DNA of 64,000 bases from Halothiobacillus neapolitanus c2 (GTDB lineage: Bacteria; Pseudomonadota; Gammaproteobacteria; Halothiobacillales; Halothiobacillaceae). The notes beneath the pieces are model-generated. The model made no database searches, was not told the origin of the DNA, and was given only the letters and a program-made list of their open reading frames with translations. Location of the stretch: contig NC_013422.1 of assembly GCF_000024765.1 (NCBI RefSeq), forward strand, positions 1,011,501 to 1,075,500, given 5' to 3'. Each line of letters opens with the position of its first letter. The first letter of the stretch is position 1. A program made the translations under genes and the position numbers. Positions 1,037 to 39,257 of the stretch are shown here, piece by piece.

Positions 1037-1071
1037 AGCTCTTGTGTGAGACATCACACAGGAGCTTTTTT
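1037..1071 (+). promoter_or_regulatory. Hairpin that contains the relaxase ribosome-binding site
   Basis: Bases 1037-1049 (AGCTCTTGTGTGA) pair with 1054-1066 (TCACACAGGAGCT) over 13 positions with one G-U pair and a GACA loop, followed directly by six T. The AGGAG of the relaxase lies in the right arm and the ATG is at 1072. The same structure could act as an intrinsic terminator or as a translational lock on the relaxase; the sequence alone does not decide. Confidence 0.7.
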
Positions 1072-6499: not shown

Positions 6500-7795
6500 A
6501 TGAAATCTCAACTCACACTTCAATCTGACGGGCGAATTTGCCGCCTTTATCGGTATCGACTGGGCAGATACCAAGCATGACATTTGTCTGCAGGCTGCGG
6601 ACGGCGTCCAGCGAGAGTTTGCTGTCCTGCCGCATCGCCCGGCTGACATTGATGACTGGGTGGTTACCCTGCGGCACAGATTCCACGGCCGACCCGTGGC
6701 TATCTGCATCGAGACATCCCGTGGCGCACTGGTCTATGCACTGCAAAAAGTATGATTTCCTGGTCCTGTTCCCGATCAATCCGGCCACACTCGCTAAATA
6801 CCGGCAAGCCTTTCAAGCCCAGCCGTGCCAAGTCAGACCCAACGGATGCACAGATCGCCCTGGAGATTCTCATGAATCACCGGGATAAGTTGAAGCCACT
6901 TCGCCCGCAAAGCTCCGGCATTCGCACGCTGACGCTGCTTCTGGAGGAGCGCCGCCAGATCGTAGACGAACAGCGGCGCCTCACCAATCGCCTGATCAGC
7001 AACCTCAAGCAATACTATCCCCTGGCTCACGAGTGGTTCGAGAATAAGAACACCACATTGTTCTGTGAGTTCATGGCCCGTTGGCCTACCTTGAAGCAGT
7101 TGCGGCAAGCCCGCCGCAAAACCCTGGAAGCCTTCTTCCGGGAGCACAACTGCCATCACCACAAGCTGGTCGAGGAACGGCTTGCCAGCATCAAGAATGC
7201 GGTGCCGTTGACCGAGGATCCCGCCATCATCAGGCCCAAACAACTGCTGGTTGAAAGTCTGGTGGAACAGTTGCGGATAACACTCAAGTCCATTGCCCGC
7301 TTCGATGCTGAAATCGACGCGCTGGCTCCAACGCTTCCTGATTATGACCTGTTCAGGTCATTGCCTGGCGCCGGACCGACACTGGCTCCGCGCTTGCTGG
7401 TTGCCTTTGGTGAACAGCGCGACCGCTATTCAAGCGCCGCCGAAATCCAGATGTATGCCGGCATCGCTCCGGTCACAGAGCGCAGCGGCAAGCAACATTG
7501 GGTGCACTGGCGAATGCAATGCCCGACATTTATGCGCCAGACCTTTGTTGAGTGGGCCGCATTGACTATTCCCCGCTCCTACTGGGCCAATGCCTACTAT
7601 CGTCAGCAGCGCGCCAAAGGCGCAGCCCATCAGGCCGCGTTACGCGCTCTGGCGTTCAAGTGGGCCCGCATCCTGTACCGCTGCTGGCTGACGCGTACAC
7701 CGTATGATGAGTCGAAATATCTGACTGCACTTAAACGCCGTGGCTCGACATTGCTGTCGCTGCCGGTCCTCACGGAGGCCGCCCAAACAGCATAA
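6500..7795 (+). pseudogene. Decayed IS110-family transposase (DEDD type)
   Basis: Read across frames, the protein has the IS110 catalytic signature FIGIDWADTKHDICL, then CIETSRGALVYAL, then AKSDPTDAQIA, and a C-terminal transposase_20 helix-hairpin-helix region (RSLPGAGPTLAPRLL). The coding sequence changes frame three times: near 6525, near 6750 and near 6815. The remaining 300 codons are intact. An element with three frameshifts cannot make its transposase, so this is a fossil. Nearby long genes are unbroken, which argues against poor sequence quality. Confidence 0.85.
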
Positions 7796-12668: not shown

Positions 12669-13726
12669 ATCAAACACATGCAGCAGTTGATTCGACTTTT
12701 TCACGTCACACAACGGACTCTATTGATATTGGCGAATATTGCCAGCTCTGTTTAATCATGTTCCTTCAGTACTATAGCGTGCGGTTTCCATGTAGCGGGC
12801 TATTTTCGTTTCTGCTCCTCCCATCTTTATAGTTCTTCCACTAAGAATTAGTACCCTACCGTTCAAGGCGCAACATAGCATCTTCATCAATGGTTTGGTC
12901 GGCGGCGTGCATTCTGAATGCTTAAATCTTGTAGATCCCATTCGCGTTATCTTATCACCATTTGGTTCCTTTAATTACAAGGGTGATTACTATTATCTCG
13001 TGCGAAGTGTATGGAGTGTTTTATCCCTTCCATGCGCAGAAGGTAGGGGATTTGGTTAAATCTGCTTTGTTTGATCAGATCCGCAGAATAACTACCTTGT
13101 GGTTATGGTTATAAAATTGGAGAGGTATTAGGTTATTGAAAATATCTCAAAACTAATTAATTAATTCTAAGTTTTATCAAAAAAAGGCAAAATTAAACGG
13201 ACATTTAAGTCGCCAAAATAACTATCACAGCAATACTGTTAGAAGTGACAGGTGCGCTGCCAACTTTGGTAAATTAAAATTTAAGAAATTGTCAATATAC
13301 CACACGGGACTGTGAAGCTAAGAAGGCGTGTGTAAGGAATTTGTCTTATTGACAGCTATGAATGGGAAATGATATGTGCGTAGTTATCGATGTATGGTTG
13401 TGAGGCTGTGAAAGTGAGACTGTAGTTCAAACTAATGTTGGCACAATCAATTATAGGCTGAACGTCATTGTTAGTTTGGTATCGGGGGCATAAATATCAC
13501 AGTTTTTTCGGGGTTTTTTTAAATTTTTGTTCGTCCTATTTTACTTGGCTTTTGTAAGGCGGAAAATTAATTTTCGGGTTGGGTATTTTGTTTAATGTAT
13601 CCAGCCAAACACCGTGTCATAAATCAATTGGCATCAAAAATGTGGGATTAGGGATTTTTGTTCTGATTCTTTGGTTGAGGTGCTTGCTGGTGCTTCTAAT
13701 TTGATTAGTCATCCTATGGAGGTAGT
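12669..13726. other. AT-rich leader region before the isonitrile operon
   Basis: No gene is supported in this 1.06 kb. It holds a lux-box-like dyad at 13234-13253 with a TAAAAT at 13275-13280 spaced like a promoter, and a long inverted repeat: CAAACTAA at 13428-13435 with TTAGTTTG at 13471-13478. If transcription starts near 13287 the operon has a leader of about 440 bases. Several T- and A-runs give strong local AT bias. Confidence 0.55.
13234..13280 (+). promoter_or_regulatory. Candidate lux box and promoter of the isonitrile-PKS operon
   Basis: TACTGTTAGAAGTGACAGGT (13234-13253) has the form CTGT-N8-ACAG, the same geometry as the better dyad before luxI. The TAAAAT at 13275-13280 starts about 31 bases after the dyad centre; at luxI the matching distance is about 33. 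This is consistent with LuxR activation from a site just upstream of the polymerase. The first gene starts 450 bases further on. Confidence 0.5.
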
Positions 13727-14638
13727 ATGAAGGGTCTCGAAATGAAAAATAACGTAGCTGTTATAAGTCGCCAGGTTACGGAAATGACAGATGATGAAAT
13801 TCATAACCTAAAGAAAATTGTATTTGATTCGGGAATTGTTGTTTTAAAGGCACAGAATGCGACAGCCTCTGATTTTGTGGATTTTGGTCGACGTATTGGG
13901 GAGCTAAGTCCTTATTACGAAGAGATGTATCATCACCCTAATCACAAGGAACTCTTCGTTTCATCTAATGTCCAGACAGATGGGAAAGTGATTGGGGTGC
14001 CGAGAACAGGGAAATTCTGGCATGCAGACTATGCCTTCATGGCAAAACCCTTTGCATTCACGATTACCTATCCACAAGTAGTTTCGTCTCAAGAGCGAGG
14101 AACTTATTTTATTGATATGGCCAGCGCTTATGAACGGCTTTCACCCGAGATGAAAAGGAAAATCGAAGGTGGGGTTGGTACGCACTCTGTTCGCCGGTAT
14201 TTTAAGATCAGACCAACAGATGTGTATCGACCCATTAGTGAGATTCTACATGAAATTGATGCAAAGACCCCAACGGTAACACACCCACTTGTTGTTAATC
14301 ATCCGGTAACGGGTGCGAAGATTTTATATGTTAGTCGTGGATTCACTGAAACTATAAGCCTAAAGGATGATGACTTGGATGCAGATGAAGTGTTGAAAGA
14401 TTTACTTGTTGAGTCAGGGCAGTCTGACGATACGTTTACTCACCCGGATATTCGCCAGATAAATATTAACGAAGGTGATATTTTTTTGTGGGATAACCGT
14501 CGTTATGTTCATCATGCAAAGCATAACGATAAGGTTGAGCCGACTAAGACTTACAGACTTACCGCTTATGATGGACTGCCGTTCAGTGCAGAGATTGACT
14601 TCGCACTTGATAGTGTGAAGGAGGTGGGACTTGTCTAG
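13727..14638 (+). CDS. ScoE/Rv0097-type isonitrile-forming Fe(II)/2-oxoglutarate oxidase
   Basis: A 303-residue TauD/TfdA-fold enzyme. The iron site is H99, D101 (FWHADY) and H262; R277 should bind 2-oxoglutarate. The residues I recall as substrate- and catalysis-defining in ScoE (Y96, Y97, Y101, Y135, R157, K193, R195, H299) all have counterparts here at a constant offset of 33: Y63, Y64, Y68, Y102, R124, K160, R162 and H266. ScoE converts a 3-(carboxymethylamino) acid to the 3-isocyano acid with loss of CO2, and this protein should catalyse the same type of reaction. The ATG at 13727 has GGAGG upstream; a second ATG five codons later is possible. Its stop overlaps the next gene, matching the Rv0097-Rv0098 order. 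Confidence 0.9.
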   Translation: MKGLEMKNNVAVISRQVTEMTDDEIHNLKKIVFDSGIVVLKAQNATASDFVDFGRRIGELSPYYEEMYHHPNHKELFVSSNVQTDGKVIGVPRTGKFWHADYAFMAKPFAFTITYPQVVSSQERGTYFIDMASAYERLSPEMKRKIEGGVGTHSVRRYFKIRPTDVYRPISEILHEIDAKTPTVTHPLVVNHPVTGAKILYVSRGFTETISLKDDDLDADEVLKDLLVESGQSDDTFTHPDIRQININEGDIFLWDNRRYVHHAKHNDKVEPTKTYRLTAYDGLPFSAEIDFALDSVKEVGLV

Positions 14639-15179
14639 CATGCAATTACTTAGTCGGGTTGATAACAACCAGCTTTTTGTCAATGATACTGTACTCCGGG
14701 ATAGGGTTTTATCCGTCTATTTTGATAACACGCGATATTTGAAATCAGCGAACATTTTTCTAGACGATAATGGTGCGAAGAGTAGAATCGTGTCTCATGG
14801 GAAGTTTTCTGTTCCTGAATCCTGTTACATTGAAAGCACTGGGCATTTTAATTCGGTTGAATTCAATATCTGCTACAACCAAATTATGTACGATGCAATT
14901 GCACACGCAACAAAGTACGAGCTCGTCCCGCAGTTTTGTGCATGGGGAACAGAAGGTTTTTTTTCTAGACAGTTGCCGGACATTCTGATTACCAGTTTTA
15001 ATAGTCGTTTCACAAAGCCTGTGAATTCAGTCGATTTCTCAGGAGAATTCACAATTCATACGATGCGCTTGCACAACAAGGGCCAACCATTCCTATTTAT
15101 AAAGACCGGATGTAGGTTCTTCGACGATGAGCAAGGTGAAGCGGTCGGCGAGGTTGATCTCGCTATTTTGAATCCATAA
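14631..15179 (+). CDS. FcoT/ScoD-type thioesterase (Rv0098 family)
   Basis: A 182-residue hot-dog-fold protein, the same size as M. tuberculosis FcoT. The segment CYIESTGHFNSVEFNICYNQ is nearly superimposable on the FcoT signature, and the catalytic residues I recall in FcoT (Y66, N74, N83) fall at exactly those positions here. In isonitrile pathways this enzyme adds glycine to an alpha,beta-unsaturated acyl-ACP and releases the product acid, which the ScoE-type oxidase then uses. I take the TTG at 14631 because AAGGAGGT ends 5 bases before it; ATG 14640 is the alternative but sits 14 bases away. The TTG start overlaps the oxidase stop by 8 bases, implying translational coupling. Confidence 0.88.
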   Translation: MSSMQLLSRVDNNQLFVNDTVLRDRVLSVYFDNTRYLKSANIFLDDNGAKSRIVSHGKFSVPESCYIESTGHFNSVEFNICYNQIMYDAIAHATKYELVPQFCAWGTEGFFSRQLPDILITSFNSRFTKPVNSVDFSGEFTIHTMRLHNKGQPFLFIKTGCRFFDDEQGEAVGEVDLAILNP

Positions 15180-15217
15180 GTGACTGATTACCGTTTGATT
15201 CTAATTAAGAGAAAAAG

Positions 15218-15586
15218 GTGAACAATTTGTCCGTTATTCATAAGCAGATCGAGGATGACTTAATCTCGATCGCCAGGCTTGTCTTGCATTGTGATGTCTT
15301 GAAGACAAAACAGAGTTTGTTTGAGCAGGGGTTGACTTCGGTTGGTGCACTTGAAATCAGAGATCGGATTGAAAAAAAATTGGACATCTCCTTAATGACC
15401 AGTGTGATTTTTGATTATCCAACAATCGACTCACTGTCAGCCTATGTGACCAAAGTGATCAGATCAGGCGGTGCAAGAGTTGTACCCGAACTACAACCTG
15501 AAACCACCACTATATCCTCTAATGGTCACTACGAACTAAGTGATGAGATGGTACGTGAAATTCTGAAGAGAGGATTTGGAGTTTAA
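15218..15586 (+). CDS. Stand-alone acyl carrier protein (ScoB-like) with C-terminal tail
   Basis: The first 80 residues are an ACP: the carrier motif is QGLTSVGALEIRDRIE, with S41 the expected phosphopantetheine site (TSV in place of the usual DSL), followed by VIFDYPTIDSLSAYV. In the isonitrile pathway this protein carries the acyl chain from the ligase to the thioesterase and onward. Residues 83-122 form an extension ending in a helix LSDEMVREILKRG that could dock onto the PKS encoded 2 bases downstream. The start is uncertain: GTG 15218, or TTG 15227 which has a better-placed AAAAAGG. Confidence 0.88.
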   Translation: MNNLSVIHKQIEDDLISIARLVLHCDVLKTKQSLFEQGLTSVGALEIRDRIEKKLDISLMTSVIFDYPTIDSLSAYVTKVIRSGGARVVPELQPETTTISSNGHYELSDEMVREILKRGFGV

Positions 15587-15588
15587 GT

Positions 15589-18500
15589 ATGGAGCAACCG
15601 ACAATTAACTCAGAAACTATGGTGAAGCAGCTTCTGTCTGAAAAACATGAACCAATAGCAATTGTTGGTCTGAGCTTGCGTCTCTCAGACGGCATTTCTG
15701 ATCTGAATGGTTTTCACCACCTGCTTCTTGATGGTCGTGATAATATCGTTGATATTCCTGAATCACGCTGGGACAATAAGAAATACTTTTCTTCCGCAAA
15801 TGATTCCGGCAATGCCATTTGTACCAATAGGGGGGGGTATTTAAACGATATAGATAAATTTGACCCGGCTTTTTTTTCCATATCGCCAAAAGAAGCGCGA
15901 TATATGGATCCTCAGCAACGGATCATGTTGGAATTGTGCTGGGAAGCACTCGAAAACGCAGGGTTGAATCCCGAAGAATTGCGTGGCTCTGATGGTGCAG
16001 TTTATTTGGGTTCAAGTAGCCTTGATTATGCTCGCGATATGATGGGGTTGGGCGAAAAACAGCTGGTCAGTCAATTAGGCACAGGTACAGCAAATAGCGC
16101 CATATCCGGGAGAATCTCATATTTCCTGGGTTGGCGTGGTCCAAGCATGACTGTTGACACAGCTTGTTCTTCCTCGTTAGTAGCGATCCATCTCGCTTCT
16201 TCAGCACTTCGAAACAAGGAAACTTCATTCGCGATAGCTGGTGGAATTAATATTGTCCATAACCCTGTCAGCCATATCATTTTCACTCGTGCCAATATGT
16301 TAGCGCCCGATGGGCGTTGTAAGACCTTCGATGAATCAGCGGATGGTTATGGTAGAAGTGAAGGGGCGGCAGTACTCGTACTTCGTCGACTTTCATCTGC
16401 TATAGCAGACGGAAACCGTATCCTAGGGGTAATTCGTGGATCGGCAGTACGCCAGGACGGTGAGAGTGGCGGTCTAACTGTTCCTAATGGTGTGGCGCAA
16501 GAGGCTGTTATGCGCGATGCGCTCAGACGTTCTTTGGTTAAACCAGCCGATATCAGCTATGTAGAGGCACACGGAACCGGAACACCTCTCGGAGATCCCA
16601 TCGAAATTCACTCCATTAATTCGTTATTTTCGGAAAGACCGAATATAGATGAAAAGGTTTATGTGGCCTCATCAAAGACGAATCTCGGACATATGGAAGC
16701 TGCAGCTGGTGTTGGCGGCATCTTAAAGTGCTTGGCACAGCTAAATAGCAAATTAATTTACCAGCATATTAATTTTAATAACCCATCATCAAAAATTGAT
16801 TGGGGGGCTTTGTCTGTTACGGTTCCGACCGAAGTTCAGCCTTGGGAACAACCGGTGCGTAGGGCAATGGTCAATTCCTTTGGTTTTGCGGGTACGATCG
16901 CCAGCTTAGTCCTTGAAGAAGCGCCTGTGATGAATGCCCCCCCCCGTGTCGATAAGAAGGGTACGTCAGGAGCCTCAGATGATCCTTTTATATTTACGGT
17001 TTCTGCCAAATCATCATCTGCTCTCTTGCGTAATATGCGGGCGTATTTAGAGACTCTCATTAAGAGCAGTGCTGATGATATGGATAGCATCATTTGGACA
17101 TCAAGTGTGGGGCGGCAACACCACCCATACCGTTGGGCTGCCTCAGCAAGAAACAATGATGAGTTGATGCAGCTTATGCGTAGTTCATTAGACGAATCTG
17201 AAGAACTAATGGCCGATACGGAAAGAATGCTGCAATTTTCCGAGGCTCGTGTTGCATTTCTGCTCACTGGGCAGGGAGCACAATACCCTGGTATGGGAGC
17301 AGGACTCTATAAGAAGAATCGAGTTTTTCGGCGTGCACTTGACGAAGTCTCGCATCACTTTGATTCAGTGCTGGATGTGAAATTAAAGGAATTAATGTTC
17401 GATCAGGGGGCAATAGCCAAAGAGCGGCTTGTGCAGACGAAGTACACTCAACCTGCCCTCTTTGCATTCAACTATGCCGTGGCAAAGATGTGGATGGAAT
17501 ATGGTATCGAACCTGCTGTGATGCTCGGTCATAGTGTGGGTGAAATTGTTTCAGCCTGCTTGTCGGGATTGTTCACCTTAAAAGATGCCGTACGGATGAC
17601 AGCTCGCCGTGCTGAGGTAATGCAATCGGTCAAGTTAGATGGTGCCATGTTAGCGGTAAAAGCGACCAAAGAGCAGGTGTCTAACTTCATAGAGTCATTT
17701 GATGATGTTGGCTTTGCGGGCTTTAACGGTCCGAAACAAACGGTTATTTCCGGCGGTATTCTTTCGCTAGACATGATTGCCGACCGTTTGTCGGAGGAAG
17801 AAATTCCTCATCGTAGGTTGGAGGTTTCACACGCTTTTCACTCTGCTCATATGAATGAAGCAGCTGAGATATTCCGTGACTACATGACCACAGTTACTTT
17901 CCATCCGCTGCAGAGGGAGTTCATTTCCAATGTGACCGGCAAGGTGGCTACTTATGATCTGGTCGCATCGCCCGATTATTGGGCGCGACATATATGCCAG
18001 CCTGTCAACTTTGCTGCGGGTATGGAGACGATAGCGACCAGAAGTTCCTATCTCTTTCTGGAAACAGGACCAAGCCCGCATTTGACTGCTATGGGGCGTG
18101 GGTGCATTAAGGCATCTGACCACTATTGGGTTGAAACAGTCAAACCATCGTTAGTTGAGGAGGATAGCCTTGATGAGGCAATTCTCTCTTTATATAAGGC
18201 GGGGCAGAAACTTGACTGGCGTATAGTTCATGCGGGTGTGTCGAACAATATGTGTGAGTTGCCTCCATACTCGTTTGATCATGAATCCTACTGGTTGCCA
18301 GTTGCTACGAGTGGAGTGGACAGGGGCTCGGATTTCCACCCACTGCTTGGCCAACTCGCAGCACGTCAACATTCGCAATGGACGTTCACAGCGTTTGTGG
18401 CGCCAAGTTCACCAGCTTATCTTGCTGATCATGTCGTTATGGGGCGCACGATCTTTCCTGGTACTGGCTACGTCGAAGTCGTACTGGCCCTTCAGGATGC

Positions 18501-21500
18501 AGTATTTGGCCACACGGGCATGGTAATGGAAGACCTTGAAATTCATGCACCGCTAATCCTAGCTGACGAAGCGTCAACTGAGTTATCAACACAACTGACA
18601 TATCAGAAGGATGGTGTATACAGTGTAGAAATTAGTTCTGTAGCGCAGGGTGAGAATACAGTTCACTTTACCTGTCGCATGTTGGAAGACCCAACACTTG
18701 TTTCTATAGTCGATCTCCCGGACGGATCAAGAGATGACGAGCAATCAACGTTTGACAAAACCATTCTCTACAACAGACTAGCTTCTTTAGGCCTTCAATA
18801 TGGGGAACAATTCCAGCGCGTTAGATCAATTCGTAAGGACGGCGTTCGTCGTGTTTTTGGTACTCTTTCGACAGAAAACATCAATAGCTGGGAGTTTGTA
18901 AATCCAGGCTTGTTTGATGGAGTGTTGCACACCCTTGAGCCTATTCTCGGTGCAGATAGGACTCTTGTTCCGGTTGGTTGGTCCAAGATACGCGTCTACC
19001 GCAAACCTCGGGGAAATGTCGAGTGCGTTGCAGAATTGCGTGTTGATTCTGATCCATTTAGTAGCGAAGTCCTAGCTGATTTAACCCTGTACGGTGATGG
19101 ATTGCTTGTTCTGCGTGCTGAGGGACTACGTTTGCGTGAAGTGAAATCCCGTGAACGTTCATCATTGCCATTTTTCCACCGTATCGTTTGGAAAGAGCAG
19201 CCGTTGGATCTTCAGGCTTTTCGTGCAGTGCGCCTAATCGGTATTAACTGCCCTGATGCCTTGAAACCACATTTGTCATCACATTTCGAGTTAGTTGCTG
19301 ATATAGATAAGGCTTTGGATGCGATACATACATCACAGGGAAAGCCGACAAAGTTTGTCTGTTTCTGGAATGGAAAGGAGTTGCCTGCCGATGCTGATGC
19401 CGATGCAATTATGGCAGCCAGCCAATCTTTTTACGAACCGTTGTTAGCATTTATAAAGGCACTTGCAAAACTTGCACTTAAAGAGACTGTAGAACTTGTC
19501 TTTGTGACAAAAGGGGTGCAAACAACGGGCAGGGAAGATGCGAGAGCTGGAACTGAGGAACCACTGTCACTTAATACCCAGTTGCAGGCAACAATATCCG
19601 GCTTTTGTTCGGTACTAAACTCTGAGTTTTCGCGCATACGTGCAAAGGTTGTAGACCTCCCGTGTATGGGTGAAGACCAGGACGATGTTTATTCACTCCT
19701 AAACGAGTTGCATTTGGGCAATAGTCGCTCAGATTTTCAAGTCGCTTATCGGTGCAATAGCCGTATGGTGAAACACCTGGAAGTGGCAAAAGTTATTGAG
19801 TCTGAGGAAAACTATCAGATCGTGGTAGCCGATGACGGACTGCTGTCTGGATTGGGGAGAAAGCCATTGCCACGCATCGTTCCGTCGGGGGATGAAATTG
19901 AAGTTTGCGTCGAGGCGGCGGGTTTGAACTTTAAGGATGTGCTCAATGCCCTTGGACTTTTGAAGGAGCATTCAAAAAGCGAGGGATTGACTCATAAAGA
20001 GTTGCCGCTTGGATTTGAGTGTGCTGGCGTTGTCACCGCAGCAGGAGATGACGCTGAGTTTATGGTTGGCGAATCGGTAATGATCAGCCACCTCGGGTGT
20101 ATGCAGCGCTATGTAACGGTGAGCAGTCGTGCTGCAGTACGTATTCCAGATGGGATCACTATGGAGCAAGCTGCTGCTATCCCAACTGCCTTCATCACGA
20201 GTTATTACGCACTATATTCGTTGGCTAAAGTGAATGCATCGGATCGTGTTCTGATTCATGCGGCAGCAGGTGGGGTTGGTCAAGCCGCGCTTCAGTTATG
20301 CAGGCGTGTGGGTGCTGAGGTATTTGCCACGGCCAGCCATCGTAAGTGGGATGTATTAAGAAACCAGGGTGTCGACAGAATCATGGATTCGCGCAACATC
20401 AATTTTGGAGAAGAAATTCTCCGGATGACGGATGGTGGTGGTGTTTCAGTCGTTCTCAATAGCCTGAATAAAGACTTCATTCCGGTCAGCCTAGCGGCGA
20501 CGGCGCACGGCGGGAGATTTGTTGAACTCGGAAAACTTGGTGTGTGGAGTAAACAACAGGTAACTGAAGTGCGGCCTGATATTTCATACTCTCAGTTTGA
20601 CCTGAGTGAAATCTCAGAAAACGAGCTCTTAGACTTGAATAAGAGCATTCTTGAAGACATTGCAGCATATCTTTCCGCGGGCGAGATTACCCCCCCTCTT
20701 GTTACCAGTTATTCAGTTACAGACATAGCTGAAGCCTTTGGTGTGCTATCACGAGGGGAAAATGTAGGGAAAATCGTTCTCACGTTCGGTCGTGAGCAGG
20801 ACAGTGACTTGTCGTTGTCTCGTGTAGTCAGTGGGGAAGGTACTTATGTAATCACTGGAGGATATGGCGCTCTAGGTCAACGTGTGGCTCGCTGCTTAAT
20901 TCAGGCCGGAGCACGAAATGTGACATTGCTTGGGCGAAATTTGCCGAATCAGGATGCACTTGCACAGTTGAAAATGAGGCTAGATGGAGTAGAGAACCTT
21001 GATCTGTGTACAGGTGATGTTGCAGATTCAGATGTTGTTGATCGGATTTTTGTAGAAGCCGCTGAGAAAGGGAGACCTGTTTGCGGAATTGTTCATCTTG
21101 CTGGACTTATTTCAGATGCGCCAATTACCGAGCAAACTTGGATTAGCTTCCGAACTGTGTTTCTTCCCAAGGTAGTTGGCACGTGGAATCTGTGGAAAGC
21201 GGCAGAACGTCATGGTGGCGTAGAACTATTTGCCGGGTTCTCATCGATTGCGTCGGTGGTCGGATCTGTTAGTCAGTCAAACTATGCCTCAGCGAACGCA
21301 TTTATTGATGGCTTGATGAATCGCACCCGGGGAGGGGGGCGTATTGGATTAGCACTTAATTGGGGGCCGTGGGGCGGAGCGGGAATGGCTGCGGAGTTAA
21401 CCGATCAGCAGAGGAAGTCTATTGAGCGAAAGGGCTTCTCACTGATTCCGATGCAGTTGGGAATGGAGGCATTCGGTCGCTTGGCCAGGCAAGCTCAAGG

Positions 21501-21993
21501 ACAGGTTGTCATCGGGAACGTCGATTGGAGTGCTTACAAAGAAAGCCTGCCTGGTGACGATTCCCTGTATGACGATGTAAAGGATGCGAAGAGTGACGCA
21601 CCTTCTGACGTTTTTGATTATAACAGTTTGCTTGCTTTGAGTGAGGACCAGCGTAAGGAGATAGTGCTTGAGAAGCTCATATTGATTCTTCGTCAGGTGT
21701 TGCAGTATGGGGAAAAAGAGAGGGTTTCTCGTCGTGCCACATTTTCAGATTTGGGAATAGATTCTTTGGTAGCTGTAGAGCTGCGAAATACTCTGGAAAA
21801 ATCATTTGGCATCGCACTCCCATCATCACTGGTATTTGATTACCCTTCTGTACCAGTATTAAGCGGATATTTGCTCGAATATTTAAAAAATAACTATGTG
21901 TCGACTTCAGGAGATGGAGAAAATTCTGATGCATCATCGGAAATGCACAAAACTTCGGAGGAAGAGGATTCCACTGAAGGAGAGCTTATATGA
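15589..21993 (+). CDS. Fully reducing type I polyketide synthase, KS-AT-DH-ER-KR-ACP
   Basis: A 2134-residue single module. KS, about 20-445: C193 in DTACSSS, H328 in VEAHGTGTPLGDP, H368 in NLGHMEAA. AT, about 555-860: S649 in GHSVGE, with HAFH at 748-751, the malonyl-CoA signature. DH, about 915-1195: H948 in HVVMGRTIFP, D1110 in GLFDGV. A structural half-KR spans roughly 1200-1400. ER, about 1410-1730: NADPH loop HAAAGGVG at 1557. KR, about 1740-1980: TGGYGALG, catalytic S1886, Y1899, N1903. ACP, about 2015-2105: S2059 in GIDSL. All domains look active, so each cycle should give a saturated carbon pair. There is no loading domain, thioesterase or methyltransferase, so the starter probably comes from the upstream ACP and release needs another protein. 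G8 (15830-15837) and C9 (16937-16945) tracts lie in the gene. Confidence 0.96.
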   Translation: MEQPTINSETMVKQLLSEKHEPIAIVGLSLRLSDGISDLNGFHHLLLDGRDNIVDIPESRWDNKKYFSSANDSGNAICTNRGGYLNDIDKFDPAFFSISPKEARYMDPQQRIMLELCWEALENAGLNPEELRGSDGAVYLGSSSLDYARDMMGLGEKQLVSQLGTGTANSAISGRISYFLGWRGPSMTVDTACSSSLVAIHLASSALRNKETSFAIAGGINIVHNPVSHIIFTRANMLAPDGRCKTFDESADGYGRSEGAAVLVLRRLSSAIADGNRILGVIRGSAVRQDGESGGLTVPNGVAQEAVMRDALRRSLVKPADISYVEAHGTGTPLGDPIEIHSINSLFSERPNIDEKVYVASSKTNLGHMEAAAGVGGILKCLAQLNSKLIYQHINFNNPSSKIDWGALSVTVPTEVQPWEQPVRRAMVNSFGFAGTIASLVLEEAPVMNAPPRVDKKGTSGASDDPFIFTVSAKSSSALLRNMRAYLETLIKSSADDMDSIIWTSSVGRQHHPYRWAASARNNDELMQLMRSSLDESEELMADTERMLQFSEARVAFLLTGQGAQYPGMGAGLYKKNRVFRRALDEVSHHFDSVLDVKLKELMFDQGAIAKERLVQTKYTQPALFAFNYAVAKMWMEYGIEPAVMLGHSVGEIVSACLSGLFTLKDAVRMTARRAEVMQSVKLDGAMLAVKATKEQVSNFIESFDDVGFAGFNGPKQTVISGGILSLDMIADRLSEEEIPHRRLEVSHAFHSAHMNEAAEIFRDYMTTVTFHPLQREFISNVTGKVATYDLVASPDYWARHICQPVNFAAGMETIATRSSYLFLETGPSPHLTAMGRGCIKASDHYWVETVKPSLVEEDSLDEAILSLYKAGQKLDWRIVHAGVSNNMCELPPYSFDHESYWLPVATSGVDRGSDFHPLLGQLAARQHSQWTFTAFVAPSSPAYLADHVVMGRTIFPGTGYVEVVLALQDAVFGHTGMVMEDLEIHAPLILADEASTELSTQLTYQKDGVYSVEISSVAQGENTVHFTCRMLEDPTLVSIVDLPDGSRDDEQSTFDKTILYNRLASLGLQYGEQFQRVRSIRKDGVRRVFGTLSTENINSWEFVNPGLFDGVLHTLEPILGADRTLVPVGWSKIRVYRKPRGNVECVAELRVDSDPFSSEVLADLTLYGDGLLVLRAEGLRLREVKSRERSSLPFFHRIVWKEQPLDLQAFRAVRLIGINCPDALKPHLSSHFELVADIDKALDAIHTSQGKPTKFVCFWNGKELPADADADAIMAASQSFYEPLLAFIKALAKLALKETVELVFVTKGVQTTGREDARAGTEEPLSLNTQLQATISGFCSVLNSEFSRIRAKVVDLPCMGEDQDDVYSLLNELHLGNSRSDFQVAYRCNSRMVKHLEVAKVIESEENYQIVVADDGLLSGLGRKPLPRIVPSGDEIEVCVEAAGLNFKDVLNALGLLKEHSKSEGLTHKELPLGFECAGVVTAAGDDAEFMVGESVMISHLGCMQRYVTVSSRAAVRIPDGITMEQAAAIPTAFITSYYALYSLAKVNASDRVLIHAAAGGVGQAALQLCRRVGAEVFATASHRKWDVLRNQGVDRIMDSRNINFGEEILRMTDGGGVSVVLNSLNKDFIPVSLAATAHGGRFVELGKLGVWSKQQVTEVRPDISYSQFDLSEISENELLDLNKSILEDIAAYLSAGEITPPLVTSYSVTDIAEAFGVLSRGENVGKIVLTFGREQDSDLSLSRVVSGEGTYVITGGYGALGQRVARCLIQAGARNVTLLGRNLPNQDALAQLKMRLDGVENLDLCTGDVADSDVVDRIFVEAAEKGRPVCGIVHLAGLISDAPITEQTWISFRTVFLPKVVGTWNLWKAAERHGGVELFAGFSSIASVVGSVSQSNYASANAFIDGLMNRTRGGGRIGLALNWGPWGGAGMAAELTDQQRKSIERKGFSLIPMQLGMEAFGRLARQAQGQVVIGNVDWSAYKESLPGDDSLYDDVKDAKSDAPSDVFDYNSLLALSEDQRKEIVLEKLILILRQVLQYGEKERVSRRATFSDLGIDSLVAVELRNTLEKSFGIALPSSLVFDYPSVPVLSGYLLEYLKNNYVSTSGDGENSDASSEMHKTSEEEDSTEGELI

Positions 21994-23582
21994 GAAGTAT
22001 GGATGCGTCGGATTTAGGCGAATTATATGTAGTGAAGGATGTTGGTGAAATTCTGCGTAGACAGGTAAAGAAAAGAGCATCAGAACCAGCGATATTTTGC
22101 GATGGTCGCGTCACAAGTTATGACTCTTTTTATAAACACAGTCGGAAAGTAGCTGATTTTCTAGTATCCAGATTGTCATGTATTGAGCGGCGTGTTGGGT
22201 ACATAGGACGGGAATGCGAGCCCTATTATGAGGTAATTTTTGGCTGCGCGATGGCGGGGGTAATTTTTGTCCCAATTAATTGGCGGCTTACCCCTAATGA
22301 AGTTGCACATATAGTAACTGACGCCAGTATTGACATACTGTTTTCCGACGCCGAAATGCTTGGTGTTGTAGAAGAAAGCCTGGATATGTGCGGTCATGAC
22401 GCAGAGGTCGTGTGTTTGAAGCATGGCATGACATCCACGAGTTATTTTGCAATTCTGCATTCAGTTGCTAAGGAGAGCGTGCTTCCGGCCTGTGATCCAG
22501 AGAGGACGTTTTGCCTTATCTATACCAGTGGCACTACTGGTCTTCCTAAAGGTGTCTGCTTGCCTCACAAGGCTTTCTTTCAAATCAGAGAGGCATTGAT
22601 TAAACAAGACCTTAAGTGGCTTGATTGGCGTCAATCTGATCGTTGTCTTGTGGGAATTCCTGGGTTTCACATTGGTGGACTCTGGTGGGCGCTTCAGTGT
22701 TTTAGTTCAGGTGCCTCCATCGTTGTATTGCCGAAATTTGAGCCACAGTTGTGTCTCACTGCCATGTTGGATTGCGGAGTAACAACAGCATGCATGGTCC
22801 CCTCGATGATAAATTTGCTATTGGATGTGATTGAGCAAAACGATGCAAAACTGCTGAAGTTGCGAAAGATTGTCTATGGGGGGGGCCCCATATCCGAAGC
22901 GCTACTTATGCGGGGCATCAGTGTGCTTGGGTGCGATTTTGCCCAGATATATGGCTTGAGTGAGACGGGAAATACCGCAGTTTGTTTAGATCCGGACAGC
23001 CATCTCTCTGAACCTTCACTGCTGACTGCCGCGGGTAGACCTTATCCAGGGGTTAAATTAAAGATTATTGATACAGATGGTAAGGTGTTGCCAATGGGTG
23101 AGGTTGGTGAAGTCTGTATCAAGACACCTGCTCGTATGATCGAGTATTGGGGGTTGCCCGATGCAACTTCAGCGACTCTGCAAGATGGATGGATCCATAC
23201 GGGTGATGCCGGCTATCTTAACGAAAGTGGTTATCTGTTTATATGTGATCGAATCAAGGACGTAATAGTCACTGGTGGAGAAAAAATATTCCCTGCAGAG
23301 GTAGAAAATGTTGTTTCATCTTTCTCTACCGTTCACGAGTGCGCAGTAATTGGTATTCCTAACGAAGTATGGGGGGAAGTGCCGATCTGCCTAGTTGTAC
23401 CTAAGCCAGAATCCGCAGTCAATATTACAGACCTCTTCAAGTTTCTCGAGTCCCGATTAGCCGCATATAAAAAACCAACGCAAATTCATTGCGTGGATAG
23501 TCTCCCCCGTAACCCGAGCGGAAAACTGCTTCGACGGGCGTTGCGAGATGCTTTTTGGACTGGCCGTAAACGCAATGTTTGA
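21990..23582 (+). CDS. FadD/ScoC-type acyl-AMP ligase
   Basis: A 530-residue ANL-superfamily adenylating enzyme. The P-loop is IYTSGTTGLPKGV, followed by YGLSETGNTA, HTGDAGYL and DRIKDVIVTGGEKIFPAEVE, with the C-terminal catalytic lysine motif NPSGKLLRR. In isonitrile pathways the matching enzyme (ScoC, FadD10) activates the free acid and loads it onto the stand-alone ACP; it may act twice, before and after isonitrile formation. It starts inside the PKS stop (ATGA overlap), so it is translationally coupled. From sequence I cannot separate acyl-ACP from acyl-CoA ligase activity. A G8 tract at 22878-22885 lies in the coding region. Confidence 0.9.
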   Translation: MRSMDASDLGELYVVKDVGEILRRQVKKRASEPAIFCDGRVTSYDSFYKHSRKVADFLVSRLSCIERRVGYIGRECEPYYEVIFGCAMAGVIFVPINWRLTPNEVAHIVTDASIDILFSDAEMLGVVEESLDMCGHDAEVVCLKHGMTSTSYFAILHSVAKESVLPACDPERTFCLIYTSGTTGLPKGVCLPHKAFFQIREALIKQDLKWLDWRQSDRCLVGIPGFHIGGLWWALQCFSSGASIVVLPKFEPQLCLTAMLDCGVTTACMVPSMINLLLDVIEQNDAKLLKLRKIVYGGGPISEALLMRGISVLGCDFAQIYGLSETGNTAVCLDPDSHLSEPSLLTAAGRPYPGVKLKIIDTDGKVLPMGEVGEVCIKTPARMIEYWGLPDATSATLQDGWIHTGDAGYLNESGYLFICDRIKDVIVTGGEKIFPAEVENVVSSFSTVHECAVIGIPNEVWGEVPICLVVPKPESAVNITDLFKFLESRLAAYKKPTQIHCVDSLPRNPSGKLLRRALRDAFWTGRKRNV

Positions 23583-23617
23583 CATTCTTTGACTTATAAG
23601 AACAGGAGTTTCTTGAT

Positions 23618-24796
23618 ATGTACACACCGCCATTTACTTTGCCTCGAGTTGCACTTTTGAAATATTGGCTTGGATTCGGATATCTTTCTCGGTACGGGAA
23701 ACTGGCCAGTGGTATAGCAGAGGAGCATAATTTCAAACCATCAATTGGACTTGATCTTTTCCGCAGTGGAGAAGAAGCATTACTTGAGTATTGTGAAAAA
23801 AATTTACCTGAGCATGTTAGTGACATACCGATTCATAAGATTGAAGCGAAAGATGCCACACCAGAAATAATGAATAAATTTCGTGAGCGCCAGTTACCGG
23901 TTCTGATCAAGGGTGGAGCACTCCAATGGAGGGCGTTTAAGGAGTTCGATCTAGATTTCTTCGAGAAGAACTATGGTGATGTAGATGTGCCTGTTCATGC
24001 GGAGCCGAATGAAATATACCCAGATAATGGAAAGCCTGTACCATTAAAGAATTTTTATCAAATGGACTATGTTCCGATTCGTGATTTGGTCAAGTCTGTA
24101 GTTACAGATGAGCGATATAGCGCGAAAGCGATTGAGGATATCACGCACGAAAACGGGGGGTCGATGATAAAGGATTATTGTGATTTGGCTCAAATCCACA
24201 GTTACGCTGGATTGGCCGAATACAAAAATAAATGGTATTTCAAAAGAACCCCTGTGGGATATGTTGTGTCCAAGCAATTGTTTATTCAATCACAAAGATC
24301 ACATACCCTGTGGCATACCGAGCCTGGCTATAATTATTTTGTAGCCATTGAAGGCATTAAGAACTGGCGTGTCACTTCGCCGTACTATAGTCCGGGATTA
24401 TATACCGTCATTAAGGATAACGCCACTTATCATGTATCTAGGGTTGATGGGCGTGAACAGAATGATGTGATAGCCAGAAGAGGCTTCCCTCTCTACCAAT
24501 ATATGCCGAAATACAGCATTACTGTTGAGCCAGGTGATATATTGATGCTCCCCCCTTGGTGGTGGCATACGGTTTCTAATCAGCCGGGCTCGCACTCTAT
24601 CTCTCTGACCTTCCGTACCGTGGCTGAGCCAAGGTTGCATGCGCCTATGCTTGACTATCTAAAGTGGGGAGATCGCAACGCTAAGGAAATTCGGCGAAAA
24701 GTCCTGCAGCATGGCCGTCTCTTTGACGAGGATATTGCCGCTTCACTGTATGCGTTTGCTGATCCTAAAAACGATATACGTTCGCAAAAGAAGTAA
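23618..24796 (+). CDS. JmjC/cupin_8-type Fe(II)/2-oxoglutarate oxygenase
   Basis: A 392-residue protein whose C-terminal half is a double-stranded beta-helix of the cupin_8/FIH type. The iron ligands are H233 and E235 (LWHTEPGYNYF) and H317 (PPWWWHTV), in the order HxE...H. PGDILMLPPWWWH is the family hallmark. Residues 1-80 are a separate helical extension that begins with an aromatic-rich segment (LLKYWLGFGYLSRYG), possibly membrane-associated. It lies 35 bases after the ligase with its own AGGAG, so it is the last gene of the operon. This is a second oxygenase in the pathway and probably hydroxylates, desaturates or otherwise oxidises the chain; its substrate cannot be read from sequence. 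Confidence 0.85.
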   Translation: MYTPPFTLPRVALLKYWLGFGYLSRYGKLASGIAEEHNFKPSIGLDLFRSGEEALLEYCEKNLPEHVSDIPIHKIEAKDATPEIMNKFRERQLPVLIKGGALQWRAFKEFDLDFFEKNYGDVDVPVHAEPNEIYPDNGKPVPLKNFYQMDYVPIRDLVKSVVTDERYSAKAIEDITHENGGSMIKDYCDLAQIHSYAGLAEYKNKWYFKRTPVGYVVSKQLFIQSQRSHTLWHTEPGYNYFVAIEGIKNWRVTSPYYSPGLYTVIKDNATYHVSRVDGREQNDVIARRGFPLYQYMPKYSITVEPGDILMLPPWWWHTVSNQPGSHSISLTFRTVAEPRLHAPMLDYLKWGDRNAKEIRRKVLQHGRLFDEDIAASLYAFADPKNDIRSQKK

Positions 24797-27949: not shown

Positions 27950-28663
27950 TTAGTCAAGAAGACCTAACATTGCGGCTCTAACAGTCGCAGAGGTTTTGTT
28001 GATGCAATTTAGTTTTTGCATTGAGTTTGCAATATGAAAGTTTACTGTCCTTTCAGTAATATTCATTATTGTTGAGGTCTCTCCAGATGTCTTGCCCGCT
28101 GCGGTCCATCTGAGCACGTCCTTTTCTCTCATGGTAAGCGTGATCATTGTCTCCGGCATTTTCTTGGTTGTAATAATTTCACTCATGCAATGATGTGAAA
28201 TTTGTGTTAGCCAGGTTAGTCGATATTGAAGTTCCTTTAGTTCTAATTCAGATATGGGTTCATGGCCACGAGTTAGTGTAAGCAGGCCTCTTCTTCCTAC
28301 TTGGTCTGCAGATGCTTGAGACCATCCATATTTCAAGTTATGAGAGTAGGCGTCCTCCCAAAAATTTTTATTTTCAGTTATCTTATTGCTGGACCAAACC
28401 ACGGGCATGAGTGACTTGTTTCCATGCTTTACTACTGGGTCTATGGATATATAATTTTCATCTGTGTAACGTCTCTTCCAATTTTGAGAGTAGTTGTTCA
28501 TCATGACAACTTTTTGATTTGTGATATTTAAATTTAAACGTAATCCATAGGCTGCATTTTCAAATCCTAGTGCTAGGGCTTCGTCTTCTATTTTCTTGAA
28601 TGCTGACTCTTCGTTTTCAGCAGATTGTATCTGAGATACAAGGTCTCCTTGCCACAATTCCAA
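27950..28663 (-). CDS. luxR: LuxR-family quorum-sensing regulator
   Basis: A 237-residue acyl-homoserine-lactone receptor. The N-terminal autoinducer-binding domain has the conserved signal-contacting residues W62, Y66, Y71, D75, P76 and W90, matching TraR positions 57, 61, 70, 71 and 85 where I can align them. The C-terminal LuxR helix-turn-helix begins LTMREKDVLRWTAAGKT and continues ITERTVNFHI. It is divergent from an RsaM-like gene and 740 bases from luxI, so it is the cognate receptor. A lux-box-like dyad in the divergent gap suggests it controls its own region. Confidence 0.93.
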   Translation of the reverse strand: MELWQGDLVSQIQSAENEESAFKKIEDEALALGFENAAYGLRLNLNITNQKVVMMNNYSQNWKRRYTDENYISIDPVVKHGNKSLMPVVWSSNKITENKNFWEDAYSHNLKYGWSQASADQVGRRGLLTLTRGHEPISELELKELQYRLTWLTQISHHCMSEIITTKKMPETMITLTMREKDVLRWTAAGKTSGETSTIMNITERTVNFHIANSMQKLNCINKTSATVRAAMLGLLD

Positions 28664-28700: not shown

Positions 28701-28720
28701 CCCTGTCAGCTTTAACACTT
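28701..28720. promoter_or_regulatory. Candidate lux box in the luxR-rsaM divergent gap
   Basis: CCCTGTCAGCTTTAACACTT has the form CTGT-N8-ACAC, one base off the CTGT-N8-ACAG pattern of the site before luxI. The left half CTGTCAG is a strong half-site. It lies 37 bases before the luxR start (minus strand) and 54 before the plus-strand start. Confidence 0.45.
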
Positions 28721-28773
28721 TCTATGTGTATAGTGGTGATGTAGTGTTGTCACATTCATTTTTATCATGAGCC

Positions 28774-29214
28774 ATGCACAATTCTAGACCAGAATATCTT
28801 AAAGAAGTTCTGAATGTTTCTCACGGCGGTTATGTTCGCATGTCGCGGAGTGCGTTCATGGAACTCCCTTTATCCCACTTTATTTCTGGTCTTGATGAGG
28901 ATCCAGCATGTTGTTCAGCTAATTTGCCTGATGAATCTACGATTTCTGGATATACAGAGTGGCTTTCTGTGTGTGTGCCGATAATAACCGTGGGATGGGA
29001 TTGGCGTTTGATTGTCCTCTCTGGTCGCCCACGCTATGTGCGTGACAGTTTACCTCGGTCAAATGTCATGATCATTGATGCCGAGACTGGGCTAGATTTT
29101 GGCGACACAATTACCACCGAGATTATTGCGCATCGTCTTGATCGTTCTCATTGGGAGGAGGACGTACTTGCTCATATTGTTGATCGATATGCGGGTCATG
29201 TCTTCGGTTCTTGA
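28774..29214 (+). CDS. RsaM-like quorum-sensing modulator (DUF4902 family)
   Basis: A 146-residue cytoplasmic protein without helix-turn-helix or membrane segments. The core GYTEWLSVCVPIITVGWDWRL, with its paired tryptophans, resembles RsaM proteins encoded beside luxR/luxI pairs in Burkholderia, Acinetobacter and Pseudomonas, where they dampen acyl-homoserine-lactone signalling. The position, between luxR and luxI, is the same. The assignment rests on context plus that motif from memory. Start ATG 28774 has only a weak ribosome-binding site. Confidence 0.7.
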   Translation: MHNSRPEYLKEVLNVSHGGYVRMSRSAFMELPLSHFISGLDEDPACCSANLPDESTISGYTEWLSVCVPIITVGWDWRLIVLSGRPRYVRDSLPRSNVMIIDAETGLDFGDTITTEIIAHRLDRSHWEEDVLAHIVDRYAGHVFGS

Positions 29215-29323: not shown

Positions 29324-29372
29324 AACTGTCTGTTCTGACAGTTGATGGGAGTACTCATCAAGGCCCTAATAC
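29324..29372 (+). promoter_or_regulatory. lux box and promoter of luxI
   Basis: AACTGTCTGTTCTGACAGTT (29324-29343) has perfect 7-base arms AACTGTC and GACAGTT around a 6-base spacer, which is textbook lux-box form. TAATAC at 29367-29372 is a fair -10 element, putting the dyad centre near -45 where LuxR proteins activate. luxI starts 60 bases downstream. Confidence 0.75.
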
Positions 29373-29403: not shown

Positions 29404-29970
29404 ATGCGGATTGAATATGGAAGTAAAACCAGTCTCCCTTTTGGTTTGTTTGAAGATTTAAGCTATTATCGTAATGATGTTTTTGTCAGGCTTCTTGGTT
29501 GGGATTTGGACACCCCATATGGTGTGGAACTTGATCAGTTTGACCGGCCAGATACAGTTTATGTTGTTGCGAAGAATGATGAGGGCAGGATCAATGGGTG
29601 TGCTCGTCTATTGCCTACAACTTCACCATACCTGCTTGGTGAGGTGTTTCCTGAACTTTTAAACGGGCTATGCCCACCTTCTTCTCCAGACGTGTGGGAG
29701 CTTTCGCGCTTTGCGGCTGTAGACGTATCTGCTGAACCTACGTCAGCTAGGGGGCAGCTTTCCTCGCCAATTGCCATTACTTTACTTAGAAGCTCGTTGC
29801 AGACGGCAGCAACTTTGGGTGCTAAATCTGTGATAACTGTCTCGCCCATCGGGATTGAACGACTTCTTCGTCATGCCGGATTCCAAGCTCACCGTGCAGG
29901 TCCCCCTATGGTTGTGGGTGGCCACCCCATTTTTGCTTGCTGGATTGATATCGCGCCCTCTCTCACTTAA
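29404..29970 (+). CDS. luxI: LuxI-family acyl-homoserine lactone synthase
   Basis: A 188-residue autoinducer synthase that joins S-adenosylmethionine to an acyl-ACP. The family-invariant residues are present: R23, F27, W33, D44, D47, R68, F82, E99 and R102 (WELSRFA). Length is normal. The acyl chain length cannot be read from sequence. Its promoter carries the best lux box in the window, implying positive feedback through the neighbouring LuxR. Confidence 0.94.
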   Translation: MRIEYGSKTSLPFGLFEDLSYYRNDVFVRLLGWDLDTPYGVELDQFDRPDTVYVVAKNDEGRINGCARLLPTTSPYLLGEVFPELLNGLCPPSSPDVWELSRFAAVDVSAEPTSARGQLSSPIAITLLRSSLQTAATLGAKSVITVSPIGIERLLRHAGFQAHRAGPPMVVGGHPIFACWIDIAPSLT

Positions 29971-31694: not shown

Positions 31695-32741
31695 TTATCC
31701 AAGCTTTGCCACCAGATCCTCCGCACGGAGGTGGGTATATCGCGAGAGCATGGTAATTGTTTTATGGCCAGTAATTTGCGCAACCTCCATCATTTCAAGA
31801 TTCCCAGTCTCAAAAAAACGACTCGTAGCCTCGTGACGTAAGTCATGGAATTTCAGGTTATTCAGAAAGTGATCATCAGGTTGCGCATTGGCAGATATGC
31901 AATCTTCGATATACACATTGCGAGCTTGAGTCACCGAACGAGAAAACGCTCGAATTAAACCGTCTTGAGTGACACTAAAAAGCCTACCACCATGCAAGGG
32001 GAGGGGCATTGTATCGAGTATGCCCATAGCCGCTCTGGACAGCGGCACCACCCGGGGTTCGTTGTTTTTAGTGTCTTTCAGATAAGCAGTCTGCTTTTCT
32101 CTGTCAATGTCCTGAGTGCGCAAACTAAGAATTTCACTTTGCCGCATGGCGGTTTCAATTGCGAACAGGACCGCCGGGACAACATATTCGTTCCGTGATT
32201 TCCTCAGCTCAACTAACAGTCGATCAAGTTCACCGGCTTCAAGCCGACGATCACGCTTACGGGAGGCTGAGGGCATTGCGATTGATCGGACGGGATTCAA
32301 CAATCCCTCCATTTGCCATTCGGTGCGTGCGATGGTGAACACATGGGAGATGAGAGCAAGATCAAGTCTGATCGTGGAATCAGAAATGCCTTCTTTCCGG
32401 CGGTCATCCCTGAATCTGGCAAAATCGGCACCACGAAAAGAGGCCAGCATCCGACTTGAAAGAGGGTGGGTCAGCCAGAAATTAATCCGCACTCCCTCAC
32501 GATGCGCGCTCTTCTTCCTGCTTGTGACCTCTTTACGGTAACGTTCCAGCGCTTCCGCCAACGAGGTGCTCTCTGCCTCAACCCTGCTGAAGAATACACC
32601 TCGATCCATTTCAGACTCGATGAGCCGAGCCCACGCATCAGCCTCTTTGCGCGTGAAGAAGGTTTTGCATTGGGTCGGATGCCCCTTACGGCGGATTTGA
32701 ACCCGCCATTGGTAATCACCACGTTTCTGAATGTATGCCAT
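31695..32741 (-). CDS. int: Tyrosine-type site-specific integrase of the island
   Basis: A 348-residue phage-type recombinase. Residues 1-60 form an arm-binding N-terminal domain (YIQKRGDYQWRVQIRRKG), followed by a core-binding SAM-like domain. Catalytic residues are R200 (ETAMRQSEIL), H299 and R302 (FHDLRHEATSR), H326 (TGHKTIT) and nucleophile Y335 (LSRYTH). It is transcribed away from the tRNA-Leu fragment that begins 90 bases upstream, the normal arrangement for elements that insert into tRNA 3' ends. It appears complete, so the island could still be excisable. Confidence 0.93.
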   Translation of the reverse strand: MAYIQKRGDYQWRVQIRRKGHPTQCKTFFTRKEADAWARLIESEMDRGVFFSRVEAESTSLAEALERYRKEVTSRKKSAHREGVRINFWLTHPLSSRMLASFRGADFARFRDDRRKEGISDSTIRLDLALISHVFTIARTEWQMEGLLNPVRSIAMPSASRKRDRRLEAGELDRLLVELRKSRNEYVVPAVLFAIETAMRQSEILSLRTQDIDREKQTAYLKDTKNNEPRVVPLSRAAMGILDTMPLPLHGGRLFSVTQDGLIRAFSRSVTQARNVYIEDCISANAQPDDHFLNNLKFHDLRHEATSRFFETGNLEMMEVAQITGHKTITMLSRYTHLRAEDLVAKLG

Positions 32742-38576: not shown

Positions 38577-39110
38577 TCAGCATGACTCGGTACCAGAGAG
38601 GATTTCTACCCGGTTAGTGGAGCCCGGATAGCCGCGTGAAGGCCCTTGGGTGAAAATAAGTGGCCCCGTGGAAAGTTTGTTCGCTTGCAGCCACTCACAG
38701 GCAATATCCTGCCAGTCGCGTGTGTCGTCGGTGCTATACACGAGGTGCACACCGTAGCTGAACAGCAGCCGCTGGCAGGTGGTGTGATGATTCGACAGAG
38801 CGACGATCCATGATGGAAGGTGAAAACGGGCGATGCGTCGCGTGGTGGCGCCGGTTTCGGTGGGGGTGTATACAAACGGCTCGTGCAGGTGCCGGACTGT
38901 AGTGAAGACGTTGAGTAAAACGATGTCCTCGAGACTCGGCTGTGCGCCGCGCCGTGTGATCGATGGTAATTCTGGCGGCTGTTCGCATCTTGCGGCTTCG
39001 GCTTGTCGCGCTATGCGCCCGAGCATTTTGACCGCCTCCACGGGGTAGCTGCCAACGTGTTCGGTAACGCAAAAATGACCACAGCCCTGCTCGATCGCAT
39101 CACCCACCAC
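38577..39110 (-). CDS. Pyruvate kinase C-terminal-domain protein (truncated)
   Basis: A 177-residue product that corresponds only to the C-terminal part of pyruvate kinase: [20 protein letters not shown] matches the end of the catalytic barrel and [21 protein letters not shown] matches the allosteric domain. The catalytic residues and nucleotide site are absent. The start is a GTG at 39110; the frame is open about 40 bases further up to a TGA, with more pyruvate-kinase-like residues ([18 protein letters not shown]). It may be a decayed gene or a free-standing allosteric domain. It could not act as pyruvate kinase. Confidence 0.65.
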
Positions 39111-39257
39111 TGCGACATCCTTGAGACCGGCAACGACTCCTACTGCTTCAAATAGCGCAAGAAATCAGCCTGATACCCTGGTCAAAATTGGACTCTGTTG
39201 GGTGGTCAATTTTCGACGCTGTTTGACACCGCTAGAGAGCATTAGGTGTTTTTAGAG

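Follow-up and report, generated by a model that had tools for sequence, protein, structure and literature searches.

Three 20-bp dyads found in the window (the whole 64-kb stretch of DNA analysed, positions 1011501-1075500 of the single 2,582,886-base contig of Halothiobacillus neapolitanus c2) are predicted LuxR-type binding sites, and AHL-bound LuxR very probably activates luxI, rsaM and an isonitrile operon through them as boxes of one quorum-sensing circuit. What is observed is that relatives conserve the luxI and rsaM boxes, the spacing of their -10 elements and the order of the genes, that another promoter matching these two precedes the operon, and that the oxidase keeps the signature residues of ScoE. 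From these we infer LuxR binding, activation as the direction of control, AHL as the signal, the role of RsaM as a brake, the operon structure and the product. In such a circuit, AHL made by LuxI would activate the divergently encoded LuxR, whose dimer would bind each 20-bp box, centred about 43.5 bases before the transcription start, and would recruit RNA polymerase to the -10 element. Raised luxI expression would provide positive feedback, raised rsaM expression would act as a damper of AHL signalling and a delayed brake, and raised expression of the operon at 13727-24796 would probably lead to an isonitrile-bearing polyketide. The features concerned, in window coordinates, are as follows.

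13234..13253, plus strand: predicted lux box of the isonitrile operon, TACTGTTAGAAGTGACAGGT; matrix score 19.3 in the minus reading, 16.1 in the plus reading
13275..13280, plus strand: -10-like hexamer of the operon, TAAAAT, starting 31.5 from the dyad centre
13281..13726, plus strand: long stretch, about 440 nt, from promoter to oxidase gene
13727..14638, plus strand: predicted ScoE-like isonitrile-forming non-heme iron oxidase/decarboxylase (PDB ScoE, 4.1e-86)
14631..15179, plus strand: ScoD-like FcoT-type enzyme (FcoT, 1.5e-67)
15218..15586, plus strand: acyl carrier protein (domain match)
15589..21993, plus strand: reducing polyketide synthase, KS-AT-DH-ER-KR-ACP (domain matches)
21990..23582, plus strand: acyl-AMP ligase type enzyme (domain match)
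23618..24796, plus strand: cupin/JmjC-type oxygenase, final gene of the tight run 13727-24796 (domain match)
27950..28663, minus strand: luxR, predicted AHL receptor and activator
28701..28720, plus strand: predicted lux box of the rsaM promoter, CCCTGTCAGCTTTAACACTT; matrix score 18.7, promoter-proximal half weak (CAC)
28742..28747, plus strand: -10-like hexamer of rsaM, TAGTGT, starting 31.5 from the dyad centre
28774..29214, plus strand: rsaM (DUF4902; Pfam PF16245, 4.2e-51), expected by analogy to damp AHL signalling
29324..29343, plus strand: predicted lux box of the luxI promoter, AACTGTCTGTTCTGACAGTT; matrix score 22.5
29365..29370, plus strand: -10-like hexamer of luxI, CCTAAT, starting 31.5 from the dyad centre
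29404..29970, plus strand: luxI, AHL synthase (Pfam Autoind_synth, 1.8e-25)

The letters and positions given for the dyads in the initial annotation were found as described, namely AACTGTCTGTTCTGACAGTT at 29324-29343, CTGTTAGAAGTGACAG at 13236-13251 and CTGTCAGCTTTAACAC at 28703-28718, the CTGT-N8-ACAG core of the 20-bp form being exact at the luxI and oxidase sites and carrying one mismatch at the luxR-rsaM gap site. The -10-like hexamers that it had placed before luxI (CCTAAT) and the oxidase operon (TAAAAT) were also confirmed, and a hexamer starting 31.5 bases past the dyad centre occurs at all three window sites. The genes luxR, rsaM and luxI follow one another in this order with luxR divergent, as in the loci here called RXI. 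The nearest solved relatives of LuxR are QscR and RhlR. LuxI was found in 2 of 57 sampled genomes, its own and that of one congener.

The best 80 of 127 LuxI relatives found were kept as loci from named genomes. A box retaining at least 7 of the 8 core letters and located 70-105 bases before luxI is present in 60 of these 80 loci, the other 20 being excluded from training. When the relatives' luxI promoters are aligned at the box, they display a conserved -10 hexamer ending in AAT, with NNNAAT starting 31.5 bases past the dyad centre in 34 of the 60 and 32.5 bases past it in 16 (together 50/60). A weight matrix was then derived from the 55 different box sequences that these luxI promoters provide (consensus nCCTGTCAAnnnTGACAGTT), the window lying outside the training set. 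Its top places in the 64 kb are 29324 (22.5), 13234 (19.3) and 28701 (18.7), the next being 955 (13.0), and omission of the sister species' box leaves this ranking unchanged (20.6, 19.2, 18.8 and 13.0). The training boxes themselves show a median score of 23.5, a tenth percentile of 19.0 and a lowest value of 8.0, with the gap site just below the tenth percentile.

Comparison with relatives, which conserve boxes of this kind, makes the gap site a predicted box of the rsaM promoter. Among the 36 relatives' RXI loci in which the divergent luxR and rsaM lie less than 500 bases apart, 22 contain a gap box scoring at least 10, as against 1.0% of 6909 control segments, and 14 contain none. In these 22 boxes TANNNT appears towards rsaM at 31.5 bases in 16 cases and at 32.5 in 4 (20/22). 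The G at position 18 is absent from 12 of the 22 (seven of them with CAC, as in the window) and from 0 of 60 luxI boxes, a contrast whose Fisher p of 8e-9 is too small because the loci are related and not independent. The matrix penalises loss of this G, so that the score-based choice of boxes works against the contrast. The half-site defect of the gap site is probably a kept feature and not decay.

A different function for the gap site, in which it represses or autoregulates luxR instead of activating rsaM, is unlikely. Some 47 bases separate its dyad centre from the start codon of luxR, and a bound dimer could therefore hinder luxR transcription; on the contrary, TANNNT stands on the rsaM side at one of the two preferred spacings in nearly all the relatives' gap boxes (the count covering the rsaM side), and passages of PMC8088503 report that its authors conclude positive quorum-sensing control of Acinetobacter baumannii abaM, with a predicted lux box before that gene. 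Repression of luxR and activation of rsaM could, moreover, co-occur. Taking activation of rsaM as the preferred reading, rsaM promoters across Beta- and Gammaproteobacteria might form a class of their own, combining a TANNNT -10 element, at a fixed spacing, with a box whose promoter-proximal half is often kept defective, and the defect might raise the AHL threshold of rsaM over that of luxI, the acquired isonitrile operon having been captured with its intact box core into the early branch. This wider reading is advanced tentatively, being quite possible if somewhat doubtful.

Regarding the operon, all 14 ScoE positions examined are kept in the oxidase, three of them being H132, D134 and H295, which we take to be the iron ligands of ScoE. 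The other 11 (Y96, Y97, Y101, R157, K193, R195, D198, R201, E209, H299 and R310) come from passages of PMC7949033. The oxidase reaches 380.9 bits against NCBIfam NF049937, under the equivalog cut-off of 400, and is a close relative formally outside the equivalog; the ScoD-like enzyme reaches 162.6 bits against NF049938, under its equivalog cut-off of 250. Since the ScoE/ScoD-like pair is accompanied by a carrier protein, synthase, ligase and oxygenase, an isonitrile-bearing polyketide is the most likely, and a probable, product. Outside this operon, searches of 368 other sampled genomes from the class (at E 1e-30) and 397 from the phylum (at E 1e-50), two sets that overlap, gave no match for the oxidase, and a smaller overlapping set of 57 genomes, own included, yielded besides the own oxidase two weak matches (E 4e-21 and 4e-4). 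Matching plasmid records numbered 214; among the 15 of these listed, the best three show 48-49% identity (two Streptomyces, one cyanobacterium) and the others about 26-30%. Annotations inspected place a TauD-FcoT pair also on one Streptomyces plasmid and one Halotia plasmid. Upstream of the operon, with transposase pieces between, window positions 9449-11308 encode a 619-aa protein with weak ketoacyl-synthase domains.

Box conservation applies to the predicted luxI and rsaM sites; at the operon, no second sampled genome has a close oxidase match for comparison. The 13236 site could be a chance dyad or the promoter relic of a lost gene, the operon being driven by an unrecognised promoter in the 480-base stretch while the luxI and rsaM boxes are real. 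Several features speak for this: the dyad centre lies 483 bases from the oxidase ATG, as against relatives' luxI boxes that start 74-102 bases before the gene; a terminator-like hairpin occurs between box and gene at 13677-13696 (1 found, 0.5 expected); split transposase pieces lie directly upstream of the box; and the box scores higher facing away from the operon (19.3) than towards it (16.1). However, (i) a 6-Mb simulation with the dinucleotides of the window produced one place scoring at least 18.6, that is, 0.01 per 64 kb, (ii) TAAAAT is spaced from the box as in relatives, (iii) a consensus scan of the plus strand over 12800-13800 found no second, sigma-70-like promoter, and (iv) an origin of the site within a transposase remnant was discarded, as the transposase frame stops at 12832 and its flanking inverted repeat (76% complementary, presumed to mark the ends of the element) at 12668, leaving some 400 bases up to the box. 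We thus regard an operon promoter unrelated to the box as improbable, slightly more so than a luxR-directed role of the gap site, and retain LuxR control of the operon as the preferred reading. The possibility that the oxidase gene is preceded by a riboswitch or a structured leader was also rejected, there being no Rfam match and the folding being ordinary (z -0.07); the 13281-13726 stretch contains no plus-strand ORF over 41 aa.

At the level of the bare motif the sites do not stand out. CTGT-N8-ACAG with at most one mismatch has 19 matches in the 64-kb window versus 18.9 expected, the bare core has 19 places in the genome versus 17 for the reversed pattern, and CTGTYA-N4-TRACAG with at most two mismatches has 149 versus 176 reversed; enrichment of bare patterns was accordingly set aside as uninformative, the counts being not above chance in window or genome. 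The sites are nonetheless strongly supported, because the independent matrix ranks exactly these three first. Over a 400-kb sample of the remaining genome its maximum is 13.5; as the scan covered the window and this sample, other good boxes may occur elsewhere. In the relatives' 1.376 Mb, 53 places other than luxI boxes (gap boxes counted in) score at least 15, versus 1 after one shuffle per locus. That all three sites match by chance in a window abounding in short dyads, as the bare counts would allow, is scarcely credible in view of the extended matrix, the -10 spacing and the fact that relatives conserve two of these boxes.

The genome has the box core combined with AAT at the -10 position twice, before luxI and before the oxidase operon, and the reversed control once. 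Given 19 box places, each read in both directions, about one chance match is unsurprising, and the weight therefore rests on which two places match. The proposal of the initial annotation that one LuxR regulon covers signal synthesis and the biosynthetic operon is supported, and LuxR is the only Autoind_bind protein of the genome. That annotation had named many equally good matches at unrelated genes as evidence against a single regulon, and the genome searches made leave the proposal standing, with one such place revealed, at 1506766. An 18-base box pattern allowing at most one mismatch returned 13 rows genome-wide, 5 of them being the three sites and 8 others. The box at 1506766 scores 21.2, like luxI and above the other two window sites, and sits without a -10 inside a reading frame that by eye resembles nagZ, while the remaining unrelated rows score at most 13.6 over 18 positions. 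A genome-wide model search recovered the two strongest sites only, with weak E values (1.14 and 1.45) and with scores for 150 of the 334 candidates, and the conclusion is not rested on it.

Among the closest known arrangements is that of A. baumannii AbaR-AbaM-AbaI, in which passages of PMC8088503 describe a divergent luxR, rsaM between and luxI downstream, with lux boxes predicted before abaM and abaI; the Halothiobacillus locus likewise has luxR divergent, rsaM in the middle and luxI downstream. In Burkholderia thailandensis, too, rsaM genes lie between luxR and luxI homologues (in passages of PMC5717390), and H. neapolitanus is already named among RsaM holders in PMC8088503. The predicted abaM box, imperfect by eye, is placed in that source downstream of its predicted -35 and -10, contrary to the layout predicted in Halothiobacillus. 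The CAC half-site of the Halothiobacillus rsaM box recurs in several relatives. In a term search, the text of the RsaM review PMC10710839 left lux boxes unmentioned. Unlike these known RXI loci, Halothiobacillus adds a third box 16 kb away, before a biosynthetic operon.

Boxes before biosynthetic genes are also present in relatives. In three Oxalobacteraceae loci (L035, L036 and, twice, L037) boxes with an AAT-ending -10, spaced as in the window, lie before genes of the NRPS, PKS or AMP-ligase type close to luxI, and in L026 such boxes precede carrier-thioesterase and phosphopantetheinyl transferase genes. The 15 chosen genes behind relatives' boxes comprise 6 of the NRPS, PKS, AMP-ligase, carrier-thioesterase or phosphopantetheinyl transferase types, 2 zinc-type dehydrogenases, 4 others and 3 without a match. 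Boxes with TTTAAT or TGTAAT and the -10 spaced alike were seen at L035:8217, L036:8718, L037:8030 and 19901, L026:7569 and 8524, and L089:6385; targets in these loci, which are Oxalobacteraceae and one Burkholderiaceae record, include dehydrogenase genes.

In Methylobacter, quorum sensing has been linked to tundrenone in PMC6977074, in whose text a term search found no lux box. Methylobacter psychrophilus has a lux box at L067:12907-12926, 56 bases upstream of a gene for a 361-aa protein with a partial TauD match (residues 286-332), AAT being absent at the -10 position. Unlike the Oxalobacteraceae and Methylobacter tundrenone circuits, the Halothiobacillus circuit would target an isonitrile operon of the ScoE/ScoD type. 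The 80 relatives' loci gave no TauD or FcoT match, but they extend no further than 10 kb to each side of luxI; the Halothiobacillus oxidase gene is about 15 kb from luxI, and a like-placed oxidase could therefore be missed. The operon resembles the isonitrile lipopeptide cluster ScoA-E of Streptomyces coeruleorubidus in its adjoining ScoE- and ScoD-like, carrier protein and acyl-AMP ligase genes. The Sco cluster contains NRPS genes, whereas Halothiobacillus has a reducing polyketide synthase and a cupin oxygenase there. We know of no AHL control of isonitrile lipopeptide clusters.

RXI loci and lux-box control of biosynthetic genes are already known; what is new is the Halothiobacillus circuit with its unusual isonitrile target, and the newest point is the weak half-site kept in rsaM boxes. 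Among the papers listed on Halothiobacillus quorum sensing, on isonitrile with quorum sensing and LuxR, on isonitrile with ScoE and on H. neapolitanus biosynthetic clusters, no title or abstract start reported this circuit. Isonitrile chemistry is tied to metal acquisition and virulence in microbes, according to PMC7949033. If the circuit operates as proposed, the isonitrile compound may be made only when cells are crowded, a chemolithoautotrophic sulfur oxidiser would gain a density-controlled isonitrile product, and added AHL would be a concrete switch for the cluster. The sequence rules that split luxI-type from rsaM-type promoters might further allow the brake of a circuit to be told from its accelerator from DNA alone.

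The surroundings of these genes are those of a mobile-island-like region, with a TrwC-type relaxase (1042-3903), an IS110-type transposase (6752-7795) and a phage-type integrase (31695-32741). Adjoining the apparent end of an IstB-type gene (IstB by eye), 176 bases at window positions 39053-39228 are 95% identical to L113:7345-7520, about 1 kb from luxR on a related Halothiobacillus contig.
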